Positions 6,033 through 44,372 of a stretch of DNA of 46,077 nt are shown one piece after another (within the stretch, counting starts at the first letter, position 1; every line of letters starts with the position of its first letter). The translations under genes and the position numbers were made by a program. The DNA lies in NCBI GenBank assembly GCA_020250005.1, contig JADCES010000164.1, positions 1 through 46,077 on the forward strand, written 5' to 3'. The stretch comes from Roseomonas sp. GTDB taxonomy: Bacteria > Pseudomonadota > Alphaproteobacteria > Acetobacterales > Acetobacteraceae. The notes under the pieces are model-generated. The model was not told the origin of the DNA, did not search any database, and saw only the letters and a program-made list of their open reading frames with translations.

Positions 6033-7174
6033 TTTTCGAACGTCGCCTGCTCACGGAAAGCCGCGGCGCTGGCTTGGTTTCCAAGCTCTGGCGCGTGCCA
6101 TGGCTATTTGTGGTGCTGCTCGGCGGTATTGCCGCGATTGGCTATGTCGCGCTGTGGACTGCGGGCAGCGGCAATGCGGATGCCTATGCGCAGAAGCACG
6201 CGCTGCGCTTTGGCTTCTGCCTGGTGATCATGCTGAGCATCGCCTTCATTGATATCAGGATCATCCTGCGCTTCGCCTGGGTGGGCTATGCCTTTGCGCT
6301 CGGCCTGCTGGTGCTGGTGCTGTTTCACGGCAATGTCGGCAAGGGGGCGCAGCGTTGGCTGGATATCGGGCCGGTGCAATTGCAGCCATCGGAGCTGATG
6401 AAAATCATGCTGGCTTTGGGTTTGGCGGCCTGGTTTCATCGCGCTTCCTGGGAACGCATGGGCAATCCGCTATTCCTGATCCCGCCCGCGCTGATGGTAC
6501 TGGTACCGGTCGGCCTGATCCTGAAGCAGCCCAATCTTGGCACCGCCTTGATCACTGCCATGATTGGCGCCGCCGTGTTTTGGGCGGCCGGCATGCGCTG
6601 GTGGAAATTCGCGCTGGTCGCCGGGGCTGCCGCCATCGCCGCGCCCATCGCCTATGATCATTTGCGCGATTATCAGCGCGCACGCATCACGACCTTTCTT
6701 GACCCGGAAAGCGATCCGCTGGGTGCGGGCTACAACATCATCCAATCCAAGATCGCGCTTGGTTCGGGCGGGATGTGGGGCAAGGGCTTCCTGCAAGGCA
6801 CGCAGGGGCATTTGAACTTTTTGCCGGAAAAGCAGACGGATTTCATCTTCACCCTGATCGCCGAGGAATTCGGCTTCATCGGCGCCATCGCCACACTCTT
6901 CATGCTGCTATCGGTGATTGTGTTCTGCTACATCGTCGCCTTCCGGTCGCGCCATCAATTCGGCCGGCTGCTCGCGATTGGGCTTGGCACCAATTTCTTC
7001 CTCTATGTCTTTGTGAATGTCGCCATGGTCACCGGCGCCATTCCGGTGGGTGGCGTGCCGCTGCCGCTGATCAGCCATGGCGGTTCGGCCATGCTGACGG
7101 TGATGATCGGCTTCGGGCTATTGCTGTCCGCCTATGTGCATCGAGACGCCGAATTGGGGCCGATGCGTGAATAG
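6029..7174 (+). CDS. rodA: Rod shape-determining peptidoglycan glycosyltransferase RodA
   Basis: SEDS-family polymerase that extends glycan strands in complex with PBP2. The 381-residue protein has about ten membrane helices. It carries SEDS signatures: LDIGPVQLQPSELMKI in the first half, ITTFLDPESDPLGAGYNIIQS in the large loop, QTDFIFTLIAEEFGFIGA and PVGGVPLPLISHGGSAM near the end. The loop aspartate expected for catalysis lies in the FLDPESDPLG stretch. Coupled to mrdA by the ATGA overlap at 6029-6032. The downstream metal ATPase frame begins inside its 3' end. Confidence 0.96.
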   Translation: MIFERRLLTESRGAGLVSKLWRVPWLFVVLLGGIAAIGYVALWTAGSGNADAYAQKHALRFGFCLVIMLSIAFIDIRIILRFAWVGYAFALGLLVLVLFHGNVGKGAQRWLDIGPVQLQPSELMKIMLALGLAAWFHRASWERMGNPLFLIPPALMVLVPVGLILKQPNLGTALITAMIGAAVFWAAGMRWWKFALVAGAAAIAAPIAYDHLRDYQRARITTFLDPESDPLGAGYNIIQSKIALGSGGMWGKGFLQGTQGHLNFLPEKQTDFIFTLIAEEFGFIGAIATLFMLLSVIVFCYIVAFRSRHQFGRLLAIGLGTNFFLYVFVNVAMVTGAIPVGGVPLPLISHGGSAMLTVMIGFGLLLSAYVHRDAELGPMRE

Positions 7175-27520: not shown

Positions 27521-28423
27521 ATGACCCTGACGAATTTCATCCAGTTGCTTGTGACCGGCATGGCCATGGGCGCCATTTATACGCTGACGGCAAAGGGGCT
27601 CTTTATCGCTCATCTCACCACCAATCGGGTGAATTTCGGCCAGGGCGATTTTCTGATGGCAGCTTCCTTTCTATCACTTGCAGCGATTGGTGCCGGGCTT
27701 CCCCTGCCAGTTGCCATTGTGGCTGTTATCATTGTCTTGTCCTTGATGGGCTGGGGCCTTGAGCGCTTCGCGGTGCGCCCGCTGGATCGTTTTGGTGCCG
27801 GCCGCGCCGGTGGTGCCTTGGCCTGGATCCTTACAACCGCGGGTGTGGCGCTTATTCTGCAGAATACCGTCGAACTCATTTGGGGGAAATCTTCCCAATA
27901 TTCGCCACCCTTGTTTTCTGATCGTCGCGATAACGTGATTATGATTGGGCAGATCGGTTTCTTTCTCGAGGAGTTGTTGATTATCCTTGCTGCCCTCGCG
28001 GCGGTCGGTGGTTTTTGGTGGGCATTGTTCAGGACCCGCTGGGGACGTGATGTCTATACAGTGGCTTTTAATCCGGATGCCGCCGCCCTGTTCGGCATCG
28101 ATGTACGTCGCACCGTGACATCGGTCTGGGTAATCGCTGCCATATTGGCGGCCATTTCTGGAATTCTGGTTGGGCCGCTGGTCACGGTTCATCCTCATAT
28201 GGGACTGATTTTCACCATCAAGGCGCTTGCGGTCGCCTCACTTGGCGGCTTTGCCAATCCCCTTGGTATTCTTGTCGGCGGCATACTTTTTGGTGTGGCG
28301 GAAGCACTGGCCAATTATTGGGACTCAAAATACGGCGATCTCTATCCGCTTCTATTTGTCATGGCGATGCTGGTGCTCAAGCCAAGTGGTATCTTCGGCG
28401 AATCAAAGGCAGATGTCCGATGA
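27521..28423 (+). CDS. Branched-chain-type ABC transporter permease, LivH type
   Basis: Inner-membrane permease of 300 residues with about eight hydrophobic segments. The LivH opening is clear: LVTGMAMGAIYTLTAKGL followed by NRVNFGQGDFLMAASFL. The C-terminal part has IKALAVASLGGFANPLG and ends in the LKPSGIFGE pattern. ATG 27521 is chosen because it precedes the conserved sequence; a TTG at 27488 would add 11 residues with no similarity. Its stop overlaps the start of the LivM-LivG fusion (ATGA, 28420-28423). Confidence 0.92.
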   Translation: MTLTNFIQLLVTGMAMGAIYTLTAKGLFIAHLTTNRVNFGQGDFLMAASFLSLAAIGAGLPLPVAIVAVIIVLSLMGWGLERFAVRPLDRFGAGRAGGALAWILTTAGVALILQNTVELIWGKSSQYSPPLFSDRRDNVIMIGQIGFFLEELLIILAALAAVGGFWWALFRTRWGRDVYTVAFNPDAAALFGIDVRRTVTSVWVIAAILAAISGILVGPLVTVHPHMGLIFTIKALAVASLGGFANPLGILVGGILFGVAEALANYWDSKYGDLYPLLFVMAMLVLKPSGIFGESKADVR

Positions 28424-30246
28424 GCGCACAAAACCCTCGCCGTCTTGCGCCTCTTGGCTGGCTGCTCGCAATAATTCTGGTGGCGGCATGGCCATCTCTC
28501 GCCCCAAACCCATTTTTTGTACATCTAGGGCAAACTTTCGCCTATACGGCTATCGCGGTCATTGGCTTGAATATTCTGCTCGGGCTTTCCGGACAGATGT
28601 CGCTTGGCCAAGCAGGATTTTACGCCATCGGTGCCTATGGTTCAGCGATCACGGCCACCAGCTTTGGATGGCCGCTCTGGCTTTCCATGCCTTTTGGTCT
28701 GCTCGCCGCTGGTCTGGTGGGCGTTTTGCTCGGTCTCGTGGCATTGCGCACGCGCGGCCTTTACCTTGCGATGGCGACACTTGCTTTCGGCTTTATCGTG
28801 GAAATCTGGGCACAACGTGCCGTGGATCTCACAGGCGGCACCATGGGGCTTTTTGGTGTACCTCAGCTGGATTTCGGCGATTTTCGTAATGCCGCCGCCT
28901 ATACCTTTTGGGTTTGCGCAACGGCACTGCTGCTGGTGCAACTCGGCAGCGATTGGGTTTTTTCCTCCGGTACCGGCCGCAAGCTACGCGCCATCAAGGA
29001 ATCGGAGAGTTTCGCGCAGACAGTTGGCCTTAATGTATCGCTCTGGCGCACGGCGGTATTCACCGCAAGCGCCTTACTGGCTGGATTGGCGGGCATATTG
29101 TTTGCGCATCAATCGGGCTTTGTTTCCTCGGACGCGTTTTCGATCCGCCTTTCCATAGCGCTGCTGATTGCGGCAGTGATTGGCGGTCTTGGTGACACCC
29201 GCGGTCCGCTTCTTGGTACTGCAATTCTGGTCGCCATTGCCGAAGTCATTGCGGGCTTTCATACCATCGGACTCATCATTTATGGCGGCATCCTGCTTGC
29301 TGTCTTGCTGCTGGTGCCAGAGGGAGCGGTTGGAATGTTGCGCGCGGCCATAAGGCCAATGCGTCGCGCTGCCCATTCCAGCCCGATAGCCGAGGCCGGC
29401 ATGCCCCAAGCCGTGGCAATGCGGCCTCCGCCACCTGGTACACGTAGAGGCGGTTCGCTTGAAGTTGTCGGTCTGTCGAAATCCTATGCAGGTGTGGTCG
29501 CGCTACGTGATGTGTCCTTTTCGGTCGCGCCGGGTACTATTCATGCCCTGATCGGCCCCAATGGTGCAGGCAAATCTACCCTGATAAACTGTGTAGCGGG
29601 TCTTTATCGCGCGGATATGGGTTCAGTTCACCTTGGACAGAACGAGGTAACAAGCCTTTCCGCCCATCAGCGTGCGCGGCTTGGTCTGGCCCGCAGCTTT
29701 CAGAATCTTCAATTGATCAGCGGGCTCACGGTGATTGAAAATGTGATGCTTGGCCTTCGGCCGCAGGCTGGCGAAGGTGGTATCCGTGCCATGATGCGAT
29801 GGGTTGCCGGACTGCCTCATGAGGAGCAGGAGCGCGCTCGTGCGCTTGCGGTGCTTGATGCGCTGGCCATCGCGCATCTTGCTGATCGCACACCGGCTGA
29901 ACTGCCCTACGGGCATAGAAAACTAGTTGAATTGGCACGGGCGCTTGCGCAGGACCCATTGGTGATGCTGCTTGATGAACCTGTTGCCGGCCTCAATCCG
30001 CTGGAAGCGCAGCAGATTGCCACAGCGCTGCGACGGCTGCGCGATTCGGGAAAGACCATCCTGCTGGTTGAGCACAATATGGAATTCGTCATGGGCTTGA
30101 GCAACAGGGTAACCGTTCTCGATCATGGCGTTGTGATTGCCGATGATACGCCTTTGGCGGTTCAGGGGGACAAGAAGGTAATCGCAGCCTATTTGGGCGC
30201 TGAGGATACGGAAGCCCCCAATTCCGAAAAGGCGACAGCGCCGTGA
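28420..30246 (+). CDS. LivM-LivG fusion: permease plus ABC ATPase
   Basis: One 608-residue polypeptide combining two transporter subunits. Residues ~1-310 are a LivM-type permease (NILLGLSGQMSLGQAGFYAI, ALRTRGLYLAMATLAFGFI, GGLGDTRGPLLGT). After a Pro-rich linker (MRPPPPGTRRGG), residues ~347-590 form a LivG-type ATPase. It has Walker A GPNGAGKST, Q-loop RSFQNLQL, a signature-like LPYGHRKLVELARAL, Walker B VMLLDEP and the H-loop VEHNM. Overlaps livH by ATGA; the following livF begins at a GTG inside its 3' end. Such fusions are known in alphaproteobacteria. Confidence 0.93.
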   Translation: MSAQNPRRLAPLGWLLAIILVAAWPSLAPNPFFVHLGQTFAYTAIAVIGLNILLGLSGQMSLGQAGFYAIGAYGSAITATSFGWPLWLSMPFGLLAAGLVGVLLGLVALRTRGLYLAMATLAFGFIVEIWAQRAVDLTGGTMGLFGVPQLDFGDFRNAAAYTFWVCATALLLVQLGSDWVFSSGTGRKLRAIKESESFAQTVGLNVSLWRTAVFTASALLAGLAGILFAHQSGFVSSDAFSIRLSIALLIAAVIGGLGDTRGPLLGTAILVAIAEVIAGFHTIGLIIYGGILLAVLLLVPEGAVGMLRAAIRPMRRAAHSSPIAEAGMPQAVAMRPPPPGTRRGGSLEVVGLSKSYAGVVALRDVSFSVAPGTIHALIGPNGAGKSTLINCVAGLYRADMGSVHLGQNEVTSLSAHQRARLGLARSFQNLQLISGLTVIENVMLGLRPQAGEGGIRAMMRWVAGLPHEEQERARALAVLDALAIAHLADRTPAELPYGHRKLVELARALAQDPLVMLLDEPVAGLNPLEAQQIATALRRLRDSGKTILLVEHNMEFVMGLSNRVTVLDHGVVIADDTPLAVQGDKKVIAAYLGAEDTEAPNSEKATAP

Positions 30247-30950: not shown

Positions 30951-31220
30951 TCCCTTGGTTGTTTGCCCCGCAATTCCGGTATTTTTCGAGCGGTTCTCGA
31001 TTGCGCTGAAGCGAGCCCACCGGTCCTGACTGAGCCCTAACCTCCCAGCCCGCAATCAGGATGGCGCCACCCCAAGGCAAGATTCTGGCGTCATCCTCAA
31101 TGGAAGATCAGCGCTTCCAACGACTGGTTTCCGTTGAAATGCTGACATCATCTCAGTTAGGATGTTTTTGATCATGGACCCGCCATGTTCTTGATCACCA
31201 CCAAAGGGGAGAAAACAACC

Positions 31221-32186
31221 ATGCGCCTCGGCCAGCCTTATCCCACACGCCCGACAACCCGGCTTCGCACATTGATACGCGAGGCCGCGCCACTCATCAT
31301 TCCTGGTTGCTTCAATGCCATGTCAGCCCGCGTGCTTGAACAGGCCGGTTTTGAGGCTGTCTACATGTCCGGCTACGGATCATCGCTCTCCGTTACTGGC
31401 CTGCCCGATGCCGGACTGATGACCTTGACGGAGATGTCGGAAAATGCGCGTCGCATCGCCGCCGCTGTTTCGGTTCCCGTCATTGCGGATGCCGATACGG
31501 GCTTCGGCAATGCAATCAATGTTGTCCGCACGGTGGAGGAGTATTGTCGTGCTGGTGTCGCTGGCATGCATCTTGAAGATCAGGTAGCGCCCAAACGTTG
31601 CGGGCATGTGGCTGGACGCGAGGTCATTGCGCGTGAGGAAGCCGTTCTAAAAATCCGTGCTGCCGCAAAAACACGCGACGCGATGGAGCCGGACTTTGTG
31701 CTGATAGCGCGCACCGACAGTCGCGGTGCCCATGGCGGCTCCCTTGATGAGGCGATCTGGCGTGCCAATGCTTTCCTCGACGCTGGCGCGGATCTTGCCT
31801 TCGTTGAAGGTCCGAAGGACATGGCGGAGGTCGAGCGGATTTGCCAGGAGGTAAAGGGGCCTATCTTCTATAATATGACTGGCATTTCCCCCCGCATGGA
31901 CCGTGAAACCATGGCGCGGCTTGGCATCAAGATCACCATTCTACCAGGTGCCATCATGCGCGCAGCCTTACTCGCGATGCATGACCTCGCTTCCGCCCTG
32001 CGTGAGAAAGGACCCATGGCGGAGTCCGAACTTGACGCTCGTTCCAAGGGGCACCCATTAGGCAATACTCATGTCTTTGCCGGCTTCGATCGCATTCGCG
32101 CCATGGAAGAAAGTTTCCTGCCCGCAGAAAGTGCAAAAAAATATGATGGTACGCTGGGCCATATGCCGCGCGCCGCGGCTGAGTGA
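31221..32186 (+). CDS. Isocitrate lyase / PEP mutase superfamily lyase (2-alkylmalate-lyase-like)
   Basis: A 321-residue TIM-barrel C-C bond lyase of the group containing methylisocitrate lyase, 2,3-dimethylmalate lyase and oxaloacetate decarboxylase. Metal-binding DADTGFGN lies at residues 90-97, MHLEDQ at 116-121 and the mobile active-site loop at KRCGH (125-129; the Cys marks lyases rather than PEP mutase). ATG 31221 is chosen because aaaggggag lies ~10 bases upstream and it begins the conserved PTRPTTRLR segment; an ATG at 31185 is less likely. The neighbouring LeuC/LeuD-type hydratase suggests the lyase cleaves a substituted malate made by that hydratase. Confidence 0.88.
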   Translation: MRLGQPYPTRPTTRLRTLIREAAPLIIPGCFNAMSARVLEQAGFEAVYMSGYGSSLSVTGLPDAGLMTLTEMSENARRIAAAVSVPVIADADTGFGNAINVVRTVEEYCRAGVAGMHLEDQVAPKRCGHVAGREVIAREEAVLKIRAAAKTRDAMEPDFVLIARTDSRGAHGGSLDEAIWRANAFLDAGADLAFVEGPKDMAEVERICQEVKGPIFYNMTGISPRMDRETMARLGIKITILPGAIMRAALLAMHDLASALREKGPMAESELDARSKGHPLGNTHVFAGFDRIRAMEESFLPAESAKKYDGTLGHMPRAAAE

Positions 32187-32409: not shown

Positions 32410-33819
32410 ATGGCCCAGCCTTCACAGACAATGTTCGAGAAAATCTGGCGTCGTCATGTGGTTGTTGACCGACCAGATGGGTATACGCTGCTCTATATTG
32501 ATCGCCATCTAATGCATGATGGATCTGCCGGCAGTTTCGCACGTTTGCGCGCGCGCGGCTTGTCGTTGCGCCGACCGGATCGTAGCTTCGCAACACCCGA
32601 CCATTATGTTGCCACCGGCGGACGCGGCCTTGGCGCCATTGAAGACAGCCATCACCGCGGCATCGTGGCAGCGATGGCGGATAACCATGCGCGATACGGC
32701 TTCACCGTCTTTGATATTGGCGATGAAAGGCAAGGTATAGCGCATGTTGTCGGCCCCGAGCAGGGAATCACGCAGCCCGGGCTGACCCTGGTCTGCGGCG
32801 ATAGCCATACCTCCACCCATGGCGCGCTTGGCGCTTTGGCTTTTGGCATTGGCTCCTCTGAAGTTGTGCATGTCATGGCCACACAAAGCCTGTGGCAGCG
32901 CAAGCCTAAGGCCATGCGGATTGCGGTTGAAGGAAATCTGGGCTTTGGCGTCACGGCGAAGGATGTGATCCTGGCTATCATCGCGCGCATCGGTGCCGGT
33001 GGCGCGATTGGTCATGTTGTCGAATATGCCGGCAGCGCCATTCGCAGCCTTTCCATCGAAGGGCGATTGACGCTCTGCAATATGTCCATTGAAGCCGGTG
33101 GGCGAGCGGGCATGGTGGCGCCGGATGATACAACTTTCGCCTATCTGCATGGGCGCGCCTTCGCCCCCAAGGGCGCCGCCTGGGACAAGGCGCTCGCCTT
33201 TTGGCGCAATGTGCCAAGCGATGAGGGTGCCGTTTTCGACAAGGAAGTAACACTGGATGCTGCGGCCATAGCGCCCATGGTCACCTGGGGCACCAGCCCC
33301 GAAGATGCAGTGCCGGTCACTGCGCGTATCCCTGATCCCAGCTCAGCGCCGGATGCATTAAAACGCGAGGGGATGGAGCGCGCCCTTGCCTATATGGGCT
33401 TGCAGCCAGGCACACCGCTTGAAGATGTTCAGGTGGATCGTGTTTTCATCGGCTCCTGCACCAATAGCCGCATTGAGGATTTGCGGAGCGCAGCCGCCGT
33501 GGTGCGCGGACGCAAGGCAGTGGTGCCAAGCTGGGCGGTTGCCGGGTCGGGCGTGGTAAAACGGCAGGCGGAAGCCGAAGGCCTTGATCTCATCTTCAGG
33601 GAAGCTGGCTTTGAGTGGCGAGAGCCGGGCTGTTCCATGTGCGTCGGTATGAATGGCGATACCGGTAAGCCCGGCCAGCGCATCGCCTCCACATCAAACC
33701 GTAATTTTGTCGGCAGACAGGGACAGGGTGTGCGCACCCACCTTGTGAGTCCGGCAATGGCGGCAGCGGCTGCCGTAACAGGCCGGTTCACGGATGTCCG
33801 TAAACTGGCTTCAGCGTGA
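32410..33819 (+). CDS. 3-isopropylmalate dehydratase large subunit-like (LeuC/aconitase family)
   Basis: Fe-S hydro-lyase large subunit of 469 residues, the length of LeuC. It has the opening [51 protein letters not shown], and the three [4Fe-4S] cysteines in [14 protein letters not shown] and [11 protein letters not shown], then [14 protein letters not shown]. Where most LeuC have a Cys before ASTSNRNF, this protein has Ile (RIASTSN). The paired small subunit follows after 15 bases. Placed beside a lyase-family gene inside a catabolic block, it could be a paralogue acting on alkylmaleate/alkylmalate or citraconate rather than in leucine synthesis. Confidence 0.88.
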
Positions 33820-33834
33820 GAGGAGATCAGCAGT

Positions 33835-34437
33835 ATGGAGGCTTTCACATCCCTCACAGCAATCGCGGTGCCGGTTGATCTGCCGAATGTTGATACCGAC
33901 CAGATCATCCCCGCACGTTTCCTTGGTCGCGCGCGGGAGGAGCAGGCCCTGGCCATGTTTCATGACATGCGACGCGCGCCTGATGGAAATCTGCGCCCGG
34001 ATTTTCCGCTGAATCAAGCAGGATTTGCGGGTGCGGGCATCATCGTGGCGGGAAGAAATTTCGCCTGTGGCTCATCCCGCGAAAATGCCGTGACAGTCAT
34101 GGTGGATAATGGCTTTCGTTCCTTTATCGCGCCGTCCTTCGGCGATATCTTTTTCAATAATTGCTTTCAGAATGGCGCTTTGCCCATCATGCTGCCAGAA
34201 GCGCGTGTGGCTGAACTGCGTTCGGAACTCCATGCAAGACCAGGAGCGCGCATTACCGTCGATTTGGCGGCACAGACAGTGACTGGGCCCGACGGAAAGA
34301 TCGATCGTTTTGAAATCGATTCCTTCCGCAAGGATTGCCTGTTGCGTGGCGTAGACAGCGTCACGCTCACACTCAGCCATGAAGGAGAGATTGCGGCCTT
34401 TGAAGCCCGGCAGAAGGAGGAAGTTTCCTGGCTCTAG
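33835..34437 (+). CDS. 3-isopropylmalate dehydratase small subunit-like (LeuD)
   Basis: Swivel-domain small subunit of the same aconitase-family enzyme, 200 residues. It shows VDLPNVDTDQIIPARFL, the substrate-binding NFACGSSRENAV, and FIAPSFGDIFFNNCFQNGAL. Canonical LeuD has GSSREHAPWA in the loop; here Glu-Asn-Ala-Val-Thr replaces it, which could affect substrate choice. The ATG follows a clear gagaggag ribosome-binding site. An AGGAGGA near the gene end sits just before the next ABC ATPase frame. Confidence 0.88.
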   Translation: MEAFTSLTAIAVPVDLPNVDTDQIIPARFLGRAREEQALAMFHDMRRAPDGNLRPDFPLNQAGFAGAGIIVAGRNFACGSSRENAVTVMVDNGFRSFIAPSFGDIFFNNCFQNGALPIMLPEARVAELRSELHARPGARITVDLAAQTVTGPDGKIDRFEIDSFRKDCLLRGVDSVTLTLSHEGEIAAFEARQKEEVSWL

Positions 34438-34463
34438 AATCCGCCTCCACCACGCTTCTGGAA

Positions 34464-35492
34464 GTGGATGGTCTTGAGAAGCACTATCCTGTGCGTCAGG
34501 GCTTGCTTGCGGCGATGCTTGGTCGGCAACCCGCACTGGTTCGGGCGGTGGATGGCGTCAGTTTCCGCATTGCACCAGGTGAGGTGCTTGGATTGGCTGG
34601 TGAATCCGGCTGCGGCAAATCCACCACGGGCATGGCCGTGCTCGACCTCGTGACGCGTACGGCCGGCAGTATTCGCGTTGCCGGCCGCGATGTTGACCTC
34701 AAGCGTGACCGCACCGCCCAGCTTGCATTTCGGCGTGACGTGCAGATTGTTTTCCAAAATCCCTTTGAGGCACTCAATCCGCGATTTACGGCGCTGGAGA
34801 GCGTACTTGAACCCATTGCCGTGCATTTCCCGGGCCGACGAGAGGAGCAGTTGGCGCGCGCACATCGCGCACTTGAACGTGCCGGCCTCGCCCCCGTTGA
34901 AACTTATGCCTCACGCTACCCGCATGAGCTTTCAGGCGGGCAGTTGCAACGCGTTGCCATCGCGCGGGCGATCGGTGTTGAACCACGCATCCTTGTAGCG
35001 GATGAGCCAGTATCGATGCTTGATGTTTCTATCCGTGCCGGCATCCTGGCGCTATTCCGCAGCTTTGCACGTGATATGGGCATGGCCATTCTTTATATCT
35101 CGCATGATCTATCGACCATGCGTTACCTTTGTCAGAACGTTGCGGTGATGTACCTAGGTCGTATTGTTGAATACGGTCCGGCAGGGGCGGTTCTCTCCCG
35201 TCCGGTTCATCCTTACGCCCAAGCGCTCATGGCGTCGGTGCCTGTGCGCGGTCGGCGCGGGCGCAAGCGTCTTCCCCTTTCCGGTCAGGTACCGAATGCC
35301 ATGGCTATCCCCGCAGGCTGCCGTTTCCACCCGCGCTGCCCGGTAGCGATGCCGATCTGCAGCGCGGTTGACCCGCCAAAGGTGATGCTTGCCAGCGGCC
35401 AGGAAGTGGCCTGCCACCTTATGACAACAACAAATAGCCAGGAGGCCCAGGATGCATCAGACACCGGAACAAATCGCCTCGCCCTCCGTTGA
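34464..35492 (+). CDS. Peptide/nickel-type ABC transporter ATP-binding protein (DppF/OppF-like)
   Basis: ATPase of a dipeptide/oligopeptide-type importer, 342 residues from GTG 34464. Walker [11 protein letters not shown]-loop FQNPFEALNPRF, signature LSGGQLQRVAIARAI, Walker B ILVADEPVSMLD, H-loop ISHDLS, and the C-terminal oligopeptide-transporter Fe-S-like cysteine motif CRFHPRCPVAMPIC. The conserved reading frame begins earlier: ALESASTTLLEV upstream is in frame and an AGGAGGA (34416-34422) precedes a CTG at 34428, so initiation at CTG 34428 is possible. The 3' end overlaps the binding-protein gene by 41 bases. Confidence 0.9.
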   Translation: MDGLEKHYPVRQGLLAAMLGRQPALVRAVDGVSFRIAPGEVLGLAGESGCGKSTTGMAVLDLVTRTAGSIRVAGRDVDLKRDRTAQLAFRRDVQIVFQNPFEALNPRFTALESVLEPIAVHFPGRREEQLARAHRALERAGLAPVETYASRYPHELSGGQLQRVAIARAIGVEPRILVADEPVSMLDVSIRAGILALFRSFARDMGMAILYISHDLSTMRYLCQNVAVMYLGRIVEYGPAGAVLSRPVHPYAQALMASVPVRGRRGRKRLPLSGQVPNAMAIPAGCRFHPRCPVAMPICSAVDPPKVMLASGQEVACHLMTTTNSQEAQDASDTGTNRLALR

Positions 35493-37353
35493 ACGGCGAC
35501 AATTTCTGAAGCTTGCCGCGGTCACCGGCGGGCTGATGGCGGCGGAGGGATCGCAGGGATTGCTGCCGCGTGCCGCGGCGCAGGATGCGTCACAGATTCA
35601 GGTCGCCAATCCGGCATTCCGTCAACTTTATGCGGAACAACGCGGCTATTACATGCAAAATCCGGCCTGGGTCCGTGATACGGTTGCGCGGCTCACCTGG
35701 CCGGCAGCGGGGACCAAGGTGCCGGAGCTCGGCGTGCTGATTCCAACGACCCAGCCAGCCTGGCTCAATGCATTTCGTAAATGGTCGCGCGATGGTGGGC
35801 AGGTTGGGCTGCGCTACACGATGCAGCAAGTGTCGCAATCGCGCTGGCTTGAAGCGATCGTTACCCATATGCATGGCGACATTCAATTCCATCCTGCCGT
35901 GGCGCGACCGGAACGTGTTGATCCTTCCGAATGGCTCATCAGCCGCGCCTATGGCAAAGACCGTCGGAATTATGGGGAATGGGCGAATGAGGAATATGAT
36001 CGGCTGATCGACCTTCAATCAGCCGAAAGTGATCCCAGCAAACGGCTTGAGCATGTGCGCGCAGCGCAAAGGGTGCTTGCCGAAGATCGCTACATCACCC
36101 AGCTTGGCTGGGGACCCGGCGTCATTGACCCCTATAATGCCGAACGTTGGGAAGGCGTAGTGCCAGTGACCGGCTTTGGCATTTGCTCCTTCGACATGTT
36201 CCAGACCTATCTGGGGCTGAAACCACGGCGCGCCAATCAGCGCCGGCGTGTCGTTGTGGGTACGCTTTCACTTGTCGAGACCCTGAATATCATCCAGGCG
36301 GCCAATCGTTTCCGTTCCATCGGACGCATGATCTATGATCGGCTTGCTTACCTTGACAAGGATCTGAATGTGATTCCCTGGGCCGCTGAGCGTTGGGAAC
36401 GCCGCGATGAGCTGACCTATGATGTCACGCTGCGCGCCGGCATGAAGTTCCATGACGACCGCCCGGTTACGGTGCATGATCTGAAATTCACGCTTGACTT
36501 CCTGACCCGCTATGACCGCGGCTTCTTTTGGACAGCGAATCAATACCTCGCCTCCACAGAAATCCTGAGTGAAGAAAACCGCACTGTCAGGCTGCGCTTC
36601 AAGCAGCCCTATGGTCAGTTCGAAACCTACTTCCTGCTGCTGAATGTGATTTTTCCAAAGCATATTTGGGAAAACATCCTACAGGAACAAAATGTGGGTG
36701 ACGATCCGCGTGCCTTGCGTTTTGAACGCCCGATCGGCAGCGGCCCCTTTGCGATCGGCCGCTATCAGGCGGACACACAGATGCAGCTGATCGCACGGAA
36801 GGATCATTTCTCTCGTCCTTCGCTGGACGAAATTCAGGTCGTTGTGGTGCCGTCAACCGATGGTCTGCTTGGGCGGTTGCAGGGTGGCGATATTGATTTC
36901 GCAGAAGGCGTTGATTTCATGCCATCACAGATCGCGACCTTGCAGCGCGAAAGGCATATCCGGGTGGAAAGGACCACCGACATCAATTGGATGCATGCGG
37001 TGAAGCGGATATCATGGCTGCCCTGGCGCGATGTTGAGTTTCGTCGTGCCTGGTCCCATACCATTGACCGGGAATTCCTGGTGCGTGTGGTATGGGAAGG
37101 CAATGGCCGCGTGCCGCGCGCAGATACTTTCCTGGTTGATGGCAATCCTTGGACCAATCCTGATCTTCCGGCCCCTGCCGGCTTCGATCTGGCGAAGGCG
37201 CGTGAAATCCTGGGCGATGCGGGCTATTCCTGGGCGGCGGATGATCAGCGCCTTGTCTATCCGCGGCCCGATGATGCACGGTGGCGGCAGCGTGTGGAGC
37301 GGGTCTGTGTACCCGGATTTACCTGGGGCGGGCTCAAGATGATCGGGAGCTGA
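35452..37353 (+). CDS. Solute-binding protein family 5 (peptide type) with permuted domain order
   Basis: Periplasmic receptor of a peptide-type ABC importer, 633 residues, with a Tat-type signal (RRQFLK at 15-20, hydrophobic core, cleavage near AAAQD). In family SBP_bac_5 the mature protein opens with a VVGT strand and a YDRL...PWAAExW segment, and ends with the lobe containing YGEW..EEYDRLI and AQRVLAED. Here residues ~88-255 already contain that terminal segment (YGEWANEEYDRLIDLQ, AAQRVLAEDRYITQLGWGPG). The canonical opening (RRRVVVGTLSLVETLN) only starts near 264, followed by LRAGMKFHDDRPVT. The chain stops after FDLAKAREILGDAGYSW, mid-way through a normal family member. The order is thus C-half then N-half in one uninterrupted frame. 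Transporter partners lie convergently downstream. Confidence 0.85.
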   Translation: MHQTPEQIASPSVERRQFLKLAAVTGGLMAAEGSQGLLPRAAAQDASQIQVANPAFRQLYAEQRGYYMQNPAWVRDTVARLTWPAAGTKVPELGVLIPTTQPAWLNAFRKWSRDGGQVGLRYTMQQVSQSRWLEAIVTHMHGDIQFHPAVARPERVDPSEWLISRAYGKDRRNYGEWANEEYDRLIDLQSAESDPSKRLEHVRAAQRVLAEDRYITQLGWGPGVIDPYNAERWEGVVPVTGFGICSFDMFQTYLGLKPRRANQRRRVVVGTLSLVETLNIIQAANRFRSIGRMIYDRLAYLDKDLNVIPWAAERWERRDELTYDVTLRAGMKFHDDRPVTVHDLKFTLDFLTRYDRGFFWTANQYLASTEILSEENRTVRLRFKQPYGQFETYFLLLNVIFPKHIWENILQEQNVGDDPRALRFERPIGSGPFAIGRYQADTQMQLIARKDHFSRPSLDEIQVVVVPSTDGLLGRLQGGDIDFAEGVDFMPSQIATLQRERHIRVERTTDINWMHAVKRISWLPWRDVEFRRAWSHTIDREFLVRVVWEGNGRVPRADTFLVDGNPWTNPDLPAPAGFDLAKAREILGDAGYSWAADDQRLVYPRPDDARWRQRVERVCVPGFTWGGLKMIGS

Positions 37354-37449
37354 TTTGCGGCGCTTGAGCATTTTCAAGCAAATATCAAGGAAAGCCGCGC
37401 TACGGCAATGGGCGCTTTGCACGTGCCTTGCGTGATCAGCGCTGACGCT

Positions 37450-38469
37450 TCAAGCGCCCAGGCCCTTGGGTTGCCATGTTGCCGGGTCAGTACCGCGGGC
37501 GCGGATTTCCACAATGTCTTCGGTGCGATGGCATGCGGCAAAATGGCCGGGCGCGACCTGCATAAGCTCCGGCTCTTGTTCGGCGCATAGCGGCATGACG
37601 AAGGGGCAGCGCGCGTGAAAGCGGCAACCCTTTGGCGGATTGAGCAAGCTCGGCGGTGAGCCCGGTATCGAAATCAGTTCCCGCGCTTCACCATCCAGAT
37701 CAGGGAAGGCGTTGATAAGGCCGACTGTATATGGATGAAACGGATTTTCCAGAACGGTATGACTGCCGCGTTCCATAACACGGCCTGCATACATGACCAC
37801 CACCTGGTCACAATTCTCGGAAACCACGGCGATATCATGCGTGATCAGCACCATCGCCTTGCCCATCTTCTCCTGTATTTCCTTGATGCGGAGCAAAATC
37901 TGATCCTGTACAATCACATCAAGCCCGGTGGTCGGCTCATCTGCCACAATCACATCGGGATCAAGCGCAAGAGCCATGGCGATCATGGCACGCTGGCGCA
38001 TGCCGCCGGAAAGCTGATGAGGATGATCGGCAAGGCGCGCTGTCGAGATGCCGACAAGGTCAAAAAGTGCGTCCAGGCGTTGACGAAGTTCAGCGCCATC
38101 CATCGGCTTATGCGCCAGAATTGCCTCGGCTATCTGGTCCCCAACACGATAGACAGGGTCAAGCGCATGCATGGCGCTTTGCGGCACCATCGCGATATGG
38201 CGCCAACGCACCTTGTTCAGCGCTGCCCGATCCAGCGCCAGAAGGTTGCTTCCCTCATATGAAATCGCGCCACCGGCACGCGCATTTTCAGGAAGTATGC
38301 CCATGATCGCTTTTGCGATGGTGGATTTGCCACAACCGCTTTCCCCCACGATGCCGAGATATTGACCCGCTTGCAGGGCAAAGGATACCCCATCCACCGC
38401 GCGTGCCTCTCCCGCTGCCGTGCGATAGGTGACGGTCAGATCACGAATTTCGAGCACTGCCATGCTCAC
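37450..38469 (-). CDS. Peptide/nickel-type ABC transporter ATP-binding protein (DppD/OppD-like)
   Basis: First ATPase of the same peptide-type importer, 339 residues. Walker [11 protein letters not shown]-loop [19 protein letters not shown], signature [15 protein letters not shown], Walker [14 protein letters not shown]-loop LITHDIA, and the C-terminal cysteine motif [14 protein letters not shown]. Transcribed leftwards after the two permease genes; the start overlaps the dppC-like stop by four bases. The stop faces the plus-strand binding-protein gene, leaving 96 bases with only weak hairpins (37362-37379; TCAGCGCTGA at 37436-37445). Confidence 0.92.
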
Positions 38470-39368
38470 CGCTTCCTGAGCCTTGGGTTGACCAACTCTT
38501 CATAGGCGCGGGTGACCATGAAGGTTGAGATCACCAGAATGGAAAGGCAGATGCCAGGTGGCAGCACCCACCACCAGGCGCTGCGCATGGCCCCTGCCCT
38601 GAAGGCATCGTTCAACATCAGCCCCCAGCTCATGACATTGGGGTCGCCAAAGCCAAGGAAGCTCAAGGCCGCCTCAGACATCACACCCGCTTGTACGCCA
38701 ATCGCAACATAAAGAAAGCTGAGTGGCAGGACATTGGGTGCGACGTGACGAAACAATATGGCAAATTCACTCAAGCCAGCCGCACGCGCGGCCAAGACAA
38801 ATGGACGTTCGCGCAACGTGAGTACCTGAGAGCGTATGACCCGCGCTGTGGTGCGCCACAGGAAGGCGATGACCAGAATAATGATCAGTCCGATACTTGG
38901 CTGGACGATCGCGATGACAACAAGCGCAAAGGGCAAAAATGGGATGCCATAGGCGATATCGGTGAGCCGCATGATGATTTCATCCACCAAGCCACCGAAA
39001 TACCCAGCCAGAAGCCCGATCAGCGTGCCGAGCAGCACGCTTCCGAGCGCTGAGAGAACCCCTACCACCAGGGCGATACGCGCGCCCCATAAAAGCTGAC
39101 TGAATACATCAACACCGTGATTGGTTGTGCCTAACCAGTGCTGCGCCGAAGGCCCGGCCAGGCGTACCGGCATCTCATCCTGATCGTAAATCGTTTCAAA
39201 GGGGCCATAGGGTGCGGCCCAGGGACCGATGAGCGCCATGGCCAGGAAGACCAACAGAAAGGCAAGGGCCACGCTGCCCGACGGGTAGCGCATGATAGTG
39301 CGTAGCAACCGTTTCATCTGCCATCTTCGAGTGGCATCAAGTCTATGCTCACTCATGTCATGAGCCAT
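38466..39368 (-). CDS. Peptide/nickel-type ABC transporter permease (DppC-like)
   Basis: Inner-membrane permease of 300 residues. An N-terminal OppC segment with one helix precedes APYGPFETIYD and HWLGTTNHGVDVFSQLLWGARIAL, the standard DppC motif (HxLGTDxxGRDVxSRxxxGxRxSL, here with GVDVF). The EAA loop is VLAARAAGLSEFAILFRHVA, followed by PNVLPLSFLYVA. About six hydrophobic segments. It overlaps the downstream ATPase gene and follows the dppB-like gene by 21 bases; together they form a minus-strand operon B-C-D. Confidence 0.92.
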   Translation of the reverse strand: MAHDMSEHRLDATRRWQMKRLLRTIMRYPSGSVALAFLLVFLAMALIGPWAAPYGPFETIYDQDEMPVRLAGPSAQHWLGTTNHGVDVFSQLLWGARIALVVGVLSALGSVLLGTLIGLLAGYFGGLVDEIIMRLTDIAYGIPFLPFALVVIAIVQPSIGLIIILVIAFLWRTTARVIRSQVLTLRERPFVLAARAAGLSEFAILFRHVAPNVLPLSFLYVAIGVQAGVMSEAALSFLGFGDPNVMSWGLMLNDAFRAGAMRSAWWWVLPPGICLSILVISTFMVTRAYEELVNPRLRKR

Positions 39369-39389: not shown

Positions 39390-40367
39390 TCATGTATAGG
39401 TCACCCGCGGGTCAATAAGACCATAGAGAAGGTCGGCGATGAAGTTAAGAACCAGAATGGTAAGCGCCATAAGGAAGAAGCAGGCCTGGACGATTGGATA
39501 GTCAAGGTTGTTCAGTGCAGTCACCATCTCACGCCCGATGCCGGGCCAGGCAAAGATGATTTCAAGCAAGACCTGACCTTCAAAAAGCAGCGCGAGAGAG
39601 ACAGCGACATCTGTGACAAGGGGTAGCATGGCGTTCCGCGCAGCGTGCGTGACCACCACCCGCTCCTTCAGCCCTTTTGCGCGCAAGATATCAACAAAGT
39701 CACTATTGCGGACCTCAAGCATGGTGCTGCGGAGCAAAAGCGCCGGGGTCGTGATTTCGCGCGACAGCAGCACAAGACCGGGCAGAATCAGGTGATAAAG
39801 ATAATCGAAGGTGAGAATCCGGGCCAGGAAGGTTTCCCCATCATTATCCAGTGAGACCATGCCGCCTGAGGGCAGCCAGCGTAGCTGATAGGCAAAAATC
39901 ATCAGCAGCAGAATGGCAACAAAGAATGATGGGGCTGAGCGCAGCGCGAGCAGCAAGGCAACCGAAGTACCCTCCCCCCTCGAACCGCGGCGCCAGCCCA
40001 GCATGGCGCCAAGTACGGCGCCAAGGGCAATCGCAAGTACAAGCGCCGGCAATACCATGGCCCAGGTATTCAGCAATTTTTCGAATACGATCTCTCTGAC
40101 AGGTACTGCTTGGAAGAAGGATTGGCCGAATTCAAAAGTCGCCATGTTCCAGATGTAGCGGGCGTATTGCACAAGAATGGGGTCATCAAGGCCCCAGGCT
40201 GCGCGCTGCGCCGCGATCATCTCCGGTGCGAAATTGCTATCGACAAATATCGCCGTTGGGTCGCCAGGAAGGGTCTTGAGCACAATGAAAAGCAAAGTGA
40301 GGATGGCCCAGATAACGAAGACAAGCGTCAGTAGCCGCCTAAGGATATAGCGACGCAACCCCTGCAT
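39390..40367 (-). CDS. Peptide/nickel-type ABC transporter permease (DppB-like)
   Basis: Permease partner of 325 residues with the DppB opening YILRRLLTLVFVIWAILTLL. FIVLKTLPGDPTAIFVD and WGLDDPILVQYARYIWNM match the GDP...LGLDxPxxxQY motif. The EAA-type loop ILRAKGLKERVVVTHAARNA and the ending TALNNLDYPIVQACF with a final LIDPRVTYT are typical. First gene of the minus-strand permease/ATPase operon; its promoter would lie at 40368-40481, between it and the right IS5-like remnant. Confidence 0.92.
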   Translation of the reverse strand: MQGLRRYILRRLLTLVFVIWAILTLLFIVLKTLPGDPTAIFVDSNFAPEMIAAQRAAWGLDDPILVQYARYIWNMATFEFGQSFFQAVPVREIVFEKLLNTWAMVLPALVLAIALGAVLGAMLGWRRGSRGEGTSVALLLALRSAPSFFVAILLLMIFAYQLRWLPSGGMVSLDNDGETFLARILTFDYLYHLILPGLVLLSREITTPALLLRSTMLEVRNSDFVDILRAKGLKERVVVTHAARNAMLPLVTDVAVSLALLFEGQVLLEIIFAWPGIGREMVTALNNLDYPIVQACFFLMALTILVLNFIADLLYGLIDPRVTYT

Positions 40368-40755: not shown

Positions 40756-41050
40756 CGATCAAGCTTTGCGGCACCTTTGGGTTGGCTCAGGCCTCAGACA
40801 ACAGCGGACCCCAGTGATGGGCCTCCAGGCGCGCCTTCCGTTGGAAGCTGAAAGATTGACGAATTGCCATTGCGTGCGTCAGCTAAGTTTTCAGAAATGA
40901 TGGAATATTCAGGGATTCCTCCGCGTGCGGGCTTGGGAAACATTGCGCTTTGGGGGGCTTGTATATGATCCCGTCCGGCGCGTCGTTGTTGCCGCGAATG
41001 GGGCGGAAACGGTGCTGCGCGCCAAGATGCTGGCGCTGCTGGCGCTCCGC
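40756..41050 (+). pseudogene. Eroded partial duplicate of the downstream small-gene/regulator unit
   Basis: 40913-41046 closely matches the first ~45 codons of the regulator at 41710: ETLRFGGLVYDPVRRVVVAA and NGAETVLRAKMLALL against ETLRFGGVVFDPVRGSIVAA and NGAETVLRAKTLALL. The similarity stops abruptly at ~41047. Left of it, 40754-40782 contains ctaccgatcaagct fused to tgcggcacctttgg. These are the same two pieces that lie ~80 bases apart at the 3' end of the minus-strand gene at 41305-41640. So a head-to-head small-gene/regulator unit was once duplicated and then deleted. No functional product is expected. From 41051 to 41197 nothing else was recognised. Confidence 0.7.
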
Positions 41051-41709: not shown

Positions 41710-43320
41710 GTGGGATTCCTTCGCGTGCAGGCTTCGGAAACATTACGCTTTGGTGGGGTCGTGTTTGACCCGGTCCGAGGGTCTATTGTCGCCGCGAATG
41801 GGGCGGAAACGGTGCTGCGCGCCAAGACGTTGGCGCTGCTGGGGCTTTTACTGGAAAGCGCTGGTCGGGTTGTCTCAGCAGATGAGATTCTGGACCGGAT
41901 TTGGGGCGATGTGACTGTTACCCCCGATAGCGTCACACAATGCATCGGTGAATTGCGCCGTGCCTTCGGGCCAGCCGGGGCGGAGCTTTTGAAAACCCTG
42001 CCGCGCCGCGGCTATGTGCTGACCGCCACGCCCGATGCCCCGCCCTCAGCCCCAGCCCTTATGGAACTTGCAACCCCTGAAGTCGAAATCATTGACCGCG
42101 CGACTGATCGGCTACCGCTAACGGCCTCCATGCCCACGGTTGCGGTGTTGCGCCCGCGCTGGCTGGGGCCGGACCCGGAAGACCCCTGGCTCACCGAAGG
42201 CATCGCGCATGACATTACGGAAATCCTGACCAGGTTTCGCGAACCGGTGGTGATTTCCAGCAATTCATCGCGCCTCATCGGTGTTGAAGGGGATGATTTT
42301 TCCGAAGCAGCACGGCAATTATCGGCGCGTTACCTTGTGACCGCCGCCTTGCGCAGTAGCGGTGAAAGGCTACGGCTTTCGATCGGCCTGGAAGATGCCT
42401 CAACCGGCGCAAGATTATGGTCTGACAGCGTGAACCTGCGGCGGGAGGAATTATTCGATTTCCAGGATGAAGCGGCAAGCCGCATTGCCCATGCGCTGGT
42501 GCCCCAGATTGCGGCGGCGGAGCTGCGCTGCAGCCTGCGGCGCCCCCCGGAACATCTGGGGGCCTATCATTTGCTGTTACGTGCGCGTGAAATGATCGCC
42601 CGGCTTGATAGGGAATCCTTCACCGAAGCGGGGCGGCTCTTGGAAGATGCGCTTGGCATTGATGCCGGTTATGGCAATTTGCATGGCGCCTATGCCGGTT
42701 GGCTGACCTTACGCATGTTCCAGGGCTGGTCGAATGATTTTGCGGGCGACAAAGCGCTGATGGAAAAAACCGCCAAGATCGCGCTGCGGTTGGACCCGGA
42801 TAATGCGCGCACGCTTTCGCTTTTCGGCCATAGCCGAACGATTATGGAACGTGACTATGCTTCCAGCGAAACATTGCTGACCCAGGCTTTCGCATTGGCG
42901 CCGAATGATGTGGAAACACTATGCTGGACCGTGCCGACCCTTTCCTATACCGGCCAGACCGAGGAGGCGATCCGGCGGGCGCAGCGCGCCTTGAGTCTTT
43001 CGCCACTTGATCCGTTTAGGTTTCGGCATGAGCATTTCCTAAGCCTTGCTTATTATGCAGCCGATGATTTTGAGAATTCGGCATCTTGGGGCTTAAGGTC
43101 ATGGGAGCGCAACACAAATTATTCTTCTAATCTTCGGATAACGATAGCAGCACTGTCTGCAGCAGGCAAAGTGGACAAGGCCAGAGAATTAGCCCAACAG
43201 CTTCTTCGAATACAGCCAGCGCTCAGCGCCCGTGCGACAGCATTTACTAGCGGATATCATGTTCCGGACCGGCGTCAATTGTATGCGCAACATCTGATAG
43301 CCGCTGGGATTCCTGAGTGA
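41710..43320 (+). CDS. Winged-helix / TolB-like / TPR transcriptional regulator
   Basis: A 536-residue cytoplasmic regulator without visible membrane helix. Residues ~8-106 form an OmpR/PhoB-type winged helix (RFGGVVFDPVRG, the DNA-contacting TVTPDSVTQCIGELRRAFG, and the hairpin LPRRGYVLTA). Residues ~128-260 are the TolB-like/adenylate-cyclase-associated domain (DPWLTEGIAHDITEILTRF, LSARYLVTAALRSSGERLRL, TGARLWSDS). Residues ~290-520 are TPR-like helices (LDPDNARTLSLFGHS, LAPNDVETLCW, LSLSPLDPFRF). This architecture resembles CadC-like regulators lacking the transmembrane segment. GTG 41710 is the only sensible start. It precedes the PAP2-fold gene by 44 bases and probably controls it. Confidence 0.85.
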   Translation: MGFLRVQASETLRFGGVVFDPVRGSIVAANGAETVLRAKTLALLGLLLESAGRVVSADEILDRIWGDVTVTPDSVTQCIGELRRAFGPAGAELLKTLPRRGYVLTATPDAPPSAPALMELATPEVEIIDRATDRLPLTASMPTVAVLRPRWLGPDPEDPWLTEGIAHDITEILTRFREPVVISSNSSRLIGVEGDDFSEAARQLSARYLVTAALRSSGERLRLSIGLEDASTGARLWSDSVNLRREELFDFQDEAASRIAHALVPQIAAAELRCSLRRPPEHLGAYHLLLRAREMIARLDRESFTEAGRLLEDALGIDAGYGNLHGAYAGWLTLRMFQGWSNDFAGDKALMEKTAKIALRLDPDNARTLSLFGHSRTIMERDYASSETLLTQAFALAPNDVETLCWTVPTLSYTGQTEEAIRRAQRALSLSPLDPFRFRHEHFLSLAYYAADDFENSASWGLRSWERNTNYSSNLRITIAALSAAGKVDKARELAQQLLRIQPALSARATAFTSGYHVPDRRQLYAQHLIAAGIPE

Positions 43321-43364: not shown

Positions 43365-44372
43365 ATGGCAGGTTTCACAGATGGCGGCTCCGACGGTGGC
43401 TCCGACGGCGGCTCTGACGGCGGCTCCGACGGCGGCTCCTTCGGCGGCATCTTCTCCCCACCCGGCATAGCCCTATCCGGGCTGCTTGGTGAGGAAGAAC
43501 CCATACCGGGCAACCCCTATGCCCCGAAGATACCCGGCAATTACCCGCTGCTGATCACCTTCGGTAAAACATCCTTCAGCGATGCCTGGTGGTCCCCGGC
43601 GCTCCGCGCCCAGCTTTGCCTGCCCGCATTGCTGAAGACGAATTGGGAGACGAAAAAGCCAAGCGATCCCATTTATATGAGTAAAAACGCTGCCATCAGC
43701 GGCGAATTTCTCAAGCGTGAAATCAATAGCCTGCGAGAGGCAGCCATGTTGCGGCCGGCACGGCAGGCGGAAATCCTGCAACAAAATAGCGGGCTGGATG
43801 GGGATTGGCGCCAATTCCTTGGTGCGCATCAATCCCGCCGGCCCGCCACGGCTGCCCTGGTCTATCTTGGCCTTGCCATGGGTACCGTGATCGGCATGCA
43901 TTGGAAGCGGCATTTCAAGGCGCCGCGGCCGGCACAAATCTACCCGGCGCTGACACCCATCGTGCCAACACCGCGGCATCCTTCCTACCCGAGCAATCAT
44001 TCCTTCCAAAGCCATTTGATTGCCGACATGCTGTCCGCCATCCTGCAAGAAAAGGGCAAGCCCGCGCATGGCATCGCGGAACCTGCCAAGGCTTTCGCGC
44101 ATCGCATCGCGCGCAACCGCGAAATCGCCGGCGTCCATTTTTCGCCGGATTCTGAGGCCGGCAAATGGCTCGCCGCCCAAATGACGGCGCTTTGGGCTAA
44201 TTTGCTCAACCCCAAAGCCGACACGGAGTTGGGCAAGCTTGTCAAGGACATCAAGGCCGAATGGGTGGATACAACTGCCTATCAATCGCCTGACCAATTC
44301 CAGCCCTATCGCAGCCTTGCGGATGTTGTGGCCGATAAGGTGAAGCAATTGCTGCCGCCAGGTAATCAATAA
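43365..44372 (+). CDS. PAP2/vanadium-haloperoxidase-fold protein with Asp-Gly-Gly-Ser repeats
   Basis: A 335-residue protein. Residues 6-25 are five perfect DGGS repeats, then SFGGIFSPPG. The C-terminal half holds the complete phosphate/vanadate-binding signature: Lys181 with RP at 188-189 (Kx6RP), PSNH at 209-212, and Arg252, His258, Asp262 (Rx5Hx3D). PSNH instead of PSGH leans towards the vanadium-haloperoxidase side, but phosphatase activity is equally possible. No classical signal peptide or strong membrane helix is seen. GGGAGGAA lies 5-12 bases before the ATG. The next gene begins 2 bases after the stop, so the two are co-transcribed. Confidence 0.85.
   Translation: MAGFTDGGSDGGSDGGSDGGSDGGSFGGIFSPPGIALSGLLGEEEPIPGNPYAPKIPGNYPLLITFGKTSFSDAWWSPALRAQLCLPALLKTNWETKKPSDPIYMSKNAAISGEFLKREINSLREAAMLRPARQAEILQQNSGLDGDWRQFLGAHQSRRPATAALVYLGLAMGTVIGMHWKRHFKAPRPAQIYPALTPIVPTPRHPSYPSNHSFQSHLIADMLSAILQEKGKPAHGIAEPAKAFAHRIARNREIAGVHFSPDSEAGKWLAAQMTALWANLLNPKADTELGKLVKDIKAEWVDTTAYQSPDQFQPYRSLADVVADKVKQLLPPGNQ
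43380..43439 (+). repeat. Five tandem 12-bp repeats encoding DGGS
   Basis: Units of gacggcggctcc with third-position variants (ggt, tct) run in frame through residues 6-25 of the PAP2-fold protein. The variation is confined to silent positions, so the peptide repeat is kept while the DNA drifts. It may be a flexible linker, a processing or export tract, or slippage-prone coding DNA. Confidence 0.9.

Follow-up and report, generated by a model that had tools for sequence, protein, structure and literature searches.

The window analysed here, 46,077 nucleotides of contig JADCES010000164.1 from a Roseomonas sp. (Acetobacteraceae), carries a gene for a solute-binding protein (SBP) at 35452-37353, set among genes of a Dpp/Opp-type ATP-binding cassette (ABC) importer. 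The frame starts with the ATG at 35452 and continues uninterrupted through 633 residues. The protein belongs to SBP family 5, and the two blocks that make up a family 5 receptor stand in it in reverse order: the block that is C-terminal in canonical members (the C-block) comes first, behind the export signal, and the canonical N-terminal block (the N-block) comes last. From sequence evidence, namely the order and homology of the blocks, the conservation of that order, the single clade formed in our sample, purifying selection and linkage to transporter genes, we consider it very probable that this is a working SBP of a Dpp/Opp-type importer and a member of a family 5 subclass (structural cluster C) whose chain is circularly permuted.

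Block order in the solute-binding protein

Membership in family 5 was evident from the Pfam profile PF00496 (SBP_bac_5), which matched residues 307-602 at 163.5 bits against a gathering score of 32.4. This match covers profile positions 2-291 of 368; no single collinear match from N-block to C-block was obtained, the profile stopping at 291 and the remaining block lying upstream. Residues 22-345 of AppA (1xoc), the best match in the PDB, align to 265-593 of the window's SBP. Because the PF00496 and AppA matches both stop early, the last quarter of family 5 is not at its usual place. The same genome holds 30 PF00496 matches, and among those in frames of more than 405 residues only the window's SBP ends at profile position 291, the others ending at 331-366 (frames of 405 residues or fewer hold the last five).

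The upstream block was identified by profile-profile comparison (hhalign) of a six-sequence profile of the clade to which the window's SBP belongs (the window clade) with 57 aligned canonical relatives. Residues 86-262 matched the canonical C-terminal block in both global (97.8%, E 4.8e-12) and local mode (96.7%, E 3.5e-10), and as a negative control they gave no match to the canonical N-part (0.2%). Conversely, residues 263-605 matched canonical columns 31-352 (E 9.4e-56) and gave no match to the canonical C-part (1.0%). When a profile of 15 permuted rows was used, AppA aligned in two swapped pieces, its residues 20-346 on profile positions 212-540 and its residues 359-496 on positions 42-183. 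The cut point thus falls between AppA 346 and 359, after AGY, and the natural ends are joined. Every part of the receptor is present in one copy, and homologues with 26-59% identity to the window's SBP align across both blocks in the permuted order.

The first-pass annotation of this DNA had proposed a circularly permuted peptide-binding protein, and the swapped block homology and the conserved order in homologues bear that out. Its estimate of about one complete receptor without a frame break also agrees with the single 633-residue frame, in which each part occurs once, and the third repeat that it thought homologues might show was not found, the order being conserved in them with one copy of each part. 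It had the last part first, at residues ~88-255, and the canonical opening at ~264, close to the limits of ~86-262 and 263 found here. Two details did not hold: about 40 residues intervene between the Tat (twin-arginine translocation) signal and the first block, which had been placed directly after it, and the chain, said to end just after GDAGYSW, goes on for another 39 residues, made up of the RLVYP segment and a 28-residue tail. The chain runs from signal to C-block, short linker and N-block, with the cut after a segment of the form AGYxW-DGRLxYP. In the 15-row alignment all six rows of the window clade share the N-terminal extension and the C-terminal tail, which the other nine lack. By eye, a similar R-L/I-x-W/Y-P motif lies near both ends (in the window clade RLTWP at the N-terminal and RLVYP at the C-terminal end). 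DNA direct repeats in 34400-37500 are confined to short families of 14-21 nucleotides, without trace of a recent duplication.

An export signal, as expected of a family 5 SBP, is present, the Tat signal model scoring above its cut-off. We also compared the frequency of the twin-arginine motif: 24 of 31 permuted proteins carry it, against 18 of 49 canonical ones (Fisher p 0.0005). This apparent Tat preference was not used as evidence because the searched stretches differ in length and the relatives are not independent, and because eight permuted members are archaeal (8/8 with the motif) and two hits (L091 and L095) look doubtful.

Conservation and descent of the permuted order

The permuted order was found in 6 of 35 genomes of the same genus (the window's own included) and in 2 of 24 other genomes of the class (G045, and G035 at 28% identity). 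In the genus sample, four genomes besides the window's own carry an SBP 97-100% identical to that of the window, G014 and G045 carry one with 58-59% identity over its length, and permuted relatives in other families of the class stand at 26-28%. Two peptide patterns run against 84,980 species genomes matched 31 stretches; nine of these loci encode a relative, and all nine relatives are permuted. Six of the nine are genomes already present in the genus and class comparison, and the isolate Neoroseomonas terrae LMG 31159 is among the nine. A profile spanning the junction found 14 proteins at E <= 1.1e-66, spread over 13 of the 385 genomes sampled from the class (the window's own among them), with no further match in that sample at 1e-18, and in a phylum sample of 299 genomes the permuted SBP was found only in the window's own genome. 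These prevalence figures are lower bounds, because the profile searches score part of the candidates in each genome (3, 8 or up to 10).

Plasmids extended this range to archaea, which were sampled through plasmid records. A 204-residue junction query matched 70 of 72,556 such records, and in 46 of these the match covered 80% of the query or more. Among the best 30 of the 70 matches are Neorhizobium, Ketogulonicigenium, Roseomonas, Maritalea, Nitratireductor and Microvirga, together with the haloarchaea Haladaptatus, Halobaculum, Halalkalicoccus, Natrinema and others, so that the carriers among the matches listed span Hyphomicrobiales, Rhodobacterales, Acetobacteraceae and haloarchaea. Ten plasmid records searched whole yielded 13 permuted proteins. 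In the plasmid records the relatives are annotated as 'ABC transporter substrate-binding protein', preceded in L103 by 'hypothetical protein'. At that locus (5739-7392, Neorhizobium galegae VafX2) the annotation splits the permuted SBP into two coding sequences; the SBP lacks its start and may carry a frameshift. The lowest-scoring permuted protein, at L110 5183-7033 (Haladaptatus caseinilyticus), matches in two collinear pieces.

A census of frames of at least 300 residues matching at E <= 1e-8 in 140 loci gave 37 non-identical permuted frames (near-identical copies from close relatives included), 57 canonical frames with both blocks, which are swapped relative to the profile, and 13 with the N-block only; no order intermediate between permuted and canonical was seen among these loci. 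The 37 permuted proteins were then rotated into canonical order and scored against a canonical profile, with four other rotation points as controls. In 18 of them rotation added 51-87 bits and extended the match to positions 477-488 of 503, the best of the four other rotation points adding 1-26 bits to these same proteins. Over all 37, some gain was seen in 31 (median 8.7 bits, range -0.7 to +86.9).

The permuted proteins are under purifying selection. Relative to L048, which is 97% identical, the ratio of non-synonymous to synonymous substitution (dN/dS) was 0.024 overall, 0.036 in block 1 and 0.016 in block 2, and was low in every segment. The 18 codons of the junction (residues 253-270) had no non-synonymous change relative to either of the two 97% relatives tested. 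Low values in both blocks and across the junction speak for a protein that works in these parts.

Unrooted trees with Shimodaira-Hasegawa (SH)-like supports were built from 31 permuted and 49 canonical proteins after 95% redundancy removal. The 31 permuted proteins formed one clade with a support of 0.993 in the first tree and, in the block trees, of 0.991 for the whole protein and 0.944 for the N-block alone; a de novo alignment made after in-silico rotation gave 0.964. We suggest that the permutation would have arisen once, when a canonical gene was duplicated in frame and in tandem and the outer halves were lost, the signal peptide being kept or regained during the rearrangement, and that the permuted gene would later have been transferred between Alphaproteobacteria and haloarchaea. 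Such an origin fits the shared cut point, the canonical SBP genes that lie near one another in this genome and the similar end motifs.

The window's own genome holds both permuted and canonical family 5 SBPs. Canonical family 5 SBP genes lie close together on one strand at G000:C293:11608-14293 in that genome and at G014:C10:167519-171223, where they are possible raw material for permutation through duplication.

Gene neighbourhood and candidate ligands

The genes around the SBP (Table 1) comprise transporter components of the BCDF type, as is usual for family 5. In 33 of 34 permuted loci (the window and 33 others, near-identical copies included) the stretch also carries a gene for a Dpp/Opp-type permease or ATPase. 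The exception is L110, which lacks Dpp/Opp-type permease genes in the sequence fetched and has one ATPase-type match, closer to the LivG-type query. At 12 loci (L084-L095) the permuted protein is the sole SBP match. The permuted chain would be expected to fold as the usual two-lobed family 5 receptor with the ligand between its lobes, and Tat export would deliver it already folded. The receptor would then pass its ligand to DppBC, with DppDF powering import.

Table 1. Features of the SBP and of the genes around it (window positions)
Feature	Position	Strand	Evidence
PrpB-like enzyme of the isocitrate lyase/phosphoenolpyruvate mutase superfamily	31185-32186	+	247 bits vs equivalog cut-off 354; clade-linked
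LeuC-type dehydratase large subunit	32410-33819	+	above leuC cut-off; clade-linked
LeuD-type dehydratase small subunit	33835-34437	+	above leuD cut-off; clade-linked
DppF/OppF-type ATPase, overlapping the SBP start by 41 nucleotides	34464-35492	+	ABC_tran and oligo_HPY
AGGAGG, Shine-Dalgarno-like, 6-nucleotide spacing to the SBP ATG	35440-35445	+	sequence reading
Circularly permuted family 5 SBP, 633 residues	35452-37353	+	frame, Pfam, hhalign, homologue comparison
Tat signal (ERRQFLKLAA), residues 13-31	35488-35544	+	TIGR01409, 19.6 bits (cut-off 16.7)
Window-clade N-terminal extension, residues 46-85, RLTWPA at its end	35587-35706	+	alignments
Block 1, canonical C-terminal block, residues 86-262	35707-36237	+	hhalign, canonical columns 377-478 of 526, E 3.5e-10
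Junction of old C- and N-termini, residues 253-270	36208-36261	+	homologue alignment; dN/dS
Block 2, canonical N-terminal block, residues 263-605, AGYSW..RLVYP segment last (new C-terminus)	36238-37266	+	PF00496 2-291/368; hhalign columns 31-352, E 9.4e-56; AppA 22-345
Window-clade C-terminal tail, residues 606-633	37267-37350	+	alignment
DppD/OppD-type ATPase	37450-38469	-	Pfam
DppC/OppC-type permease	38466-39368	-	Pfam
DppB/OppB-type permease	39390-40367	-	Pfam

The LeuC-, LeuD- and PrpB-like genes upstream are linked to the window clade. They occur together in 10 of 11 window-clade loci (the window, L045-L053 and L094) vs none of the 23 other permuted loci; at L053 the sole match is to LeuC, at 28%. 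Dehydratases and lyases of this kind are known from the breakdown of methylcitrate and dimethylmalate, and a hydroxy di- or tricarboxylic acid is therefore the probable ligand in the window clade, where the LeuCD-like dehydratase and the PrpB-like lyase encoded nearby would handle it. Both dehydratase subunits also score above the leuC and leuD cut-offs, as they would if they served ordinary leucine biosynthesis. Against that explanation, the genome has two more full-length LeuC homologues, 57-59% identical (G000:C206:14149-15546 and G000:C75:20009-21409), and the co-occurrence of LeuC, LeuD and lyase is, among the loci compared, specific to the clade. Some compact relatives may instead bind peptide-like ligands: among 11 annotated plasmid neighbourhoods, six contain peptidase- or amidohydrolase-type genes (M20, M28, M81, D-aminoacylase, hydantoinase and creatininase) and five are without them, and such neighbours point to peptide-like substrates.

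Elsewhere in the window, one 642-residue frame at 28318-30246 unites LivM-like permease and LivG-like ATPase parts. The stretches 40912-41046 and 41712-41846 are 85% identical over 136 columns, the former being a truncated copy of the 5' end of a regulator-like gene (41710-43320), placed upstream of that gene. A frame at 43365-44372 opens with an (SDGG)n repeat, and its body resembles a PAP2 phosphatase by eye.

Alternative explanations and known receptors

Several results weigh against a working permuted receptor of single origin. Rotation left the score flat in 19 of the 37 permuted proteins (18 of them changed by -0.7 to +0.6 bits, L110 by +8.7), a set that includes the window's SBP, the whole window clade, the truncated L103 and seven of eight archaeal proteins. 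The first-pass annotation had proposed scoring the rotated order, and for the window's SBP the outcome was divided: the Pfam score rose from 163.5 to 170.0 bits and the profile end moved from 291 to 340 of 368, whereas the score against the canonical profile was nearly unchanged (199.8 and 200.3 bits). We read the flat result as divergence of block 1 together with insertions between the blocks, and for the window's SBP it is the profile-profile result that carries the claim of permutation. Two AlphaFold2 models built on shallow alignments of 8 and 10 rows reached a mean predicted local distance difference test score of only 41.2 and 42.7, and two scans of viral contigs for further alignment rows found no relative. 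When the tree was built from the C-block alone (75 tips), the permuted clade took in three canonical proteins (support 0.874). No intermediate of a tandem duplication was seen among the fetched frames. Relative to more distant relatives, dN/dS was 0.20-0.25 overall, with dS saturated, and 0.42-1.07 in the signal region.

That the order is an artefact of assembly or binning can be regarded as refuted. The window's genome is an assembly of 325 contigs, and the first-pass annotation had wanted homologues of the same order as a safeguard against mis-assembly; many were found, in other assemblies, in the isolate Neoroseomonas terrae LMG 31159, in plasmid records and in other families of the class at 26-28% identity. 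We also consider it highly improbable that the chain adopts another fold, such as a swapped dimer with block 2 of one subunit completed by block 1 from another. The low confidence of the AlphaFold2 models would be compatible with this, but old termini joined directly and a cut within one loop are the anatomy expected of a monomeric permutant, and Dpp-type importers normally use one SBP.

The remaining alternatives concern descent. A chimera, made when halves of two SBP paralogues fused in reverse order, would leave the observed order unaffected, and although unlikely it deserves consideration, as the N-block gives a cleaner tree than the C-block, canonical SBP genes neighbour each other in the same genome, and a similar possibility was raised for TpMglB-2 of Treponema pallidum by the authors of PMC4990184. 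Opposed to it, all 31 permuted proteins group together in both block trees (exclusively for the N-block, with three canonical proteins added for the C-block), and the two blocks sum to one receptor with each part once. That the canonical order derives from an ancestral permuted one, or that permutation occurred several times, seems very unlikely, even with an unrooted tree and SH-like supports only. The canonical order is found in 57 of 57 two-block relatives and in the PDB match displayed residue by residue, and the other 59 of the 60 listed PDB matches are best in the N-block. PF00496 is present in 11 of 14 control genomes of bacteria and archaea, vs a permuted form in 13 of 385 genomes of the class and, of 299 in the phylum, the window's own only. 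One common cut point lies within the alignment.

We conclude that the permuted branch of family 5 appears to be real and not an error, and that it is apparently unrecorded; no permuted family 5 protein was noticed among the matches listed from the open-licence literature searched, most subscription literature lying outside this scope. It is probably an ancient subclass of single origin ('cluster Cc') in Alphaproteobacteria and haloarchaea, annotated as ordinary SBPs, in which the moved termini alter folding or Tat pairing and perhaps hinge behaviour. Family 5 ranks among the large groups of transport receptors, and the order of its chain has been treated as fixed. A natural, conserved permutant indicates that a chain break behind the AGY segment is very likely compatible with the fold; it offers a ready design for permuted biosensors and explains why PF00496 covers just about three quarters of its length in permuted proteins. 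The natural relatives also make it possible to compare how chain order affects folding, the route of export (Tat or general secretory, Sec) and flytrap motion.

With known members of family 5 (PF00496; AppA, DppA, OppA and NikA) the window's SBP has in common the domain parts, the signal peptide and the DppBCDF-type partners; it differs in its permuted block order and fused old termini. It shares a weak N-block match with the NikA, Opp4A and TIGR04028 equivalogs, in which the order is canonical, and it stays far below the NCBIfam equivalog cut-offs for DppA (50.8 bits vs 1005) and NikA (83 vs 393). The permuted profile matched 108 distinct PDB sequences at 1e-10, and among the 60 of these listed none had the permuted order in one stretch, since the best stretch of all 60 lies in the N-block (profile position 205 onward). 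Domain dislocation is known in other SBPs. Nothing places the window's SBP with the cluster B sugar-binding proteins called Cluster Bc, as Pfam at 1e-3 reports SBP_bac_5 only and the listed PDB names are of family 5 type; TpMglB-2 itself was compared by description. As described in PMC4990184, TpMglB-2 (Tp0684) is a natural circular permutation that has been proposed as 'Type Ic' or 'Cluster Bc', and it is likewise an ABC ligand-binding protein with homologues reported to have the same topology. It is set apart by its Type I/Cluster B sugar-binding fold, in which strands of the N-lobe are permuted, and by homologues that are mostly from treponemes and Gram-positive bacteria (PMC4990184).

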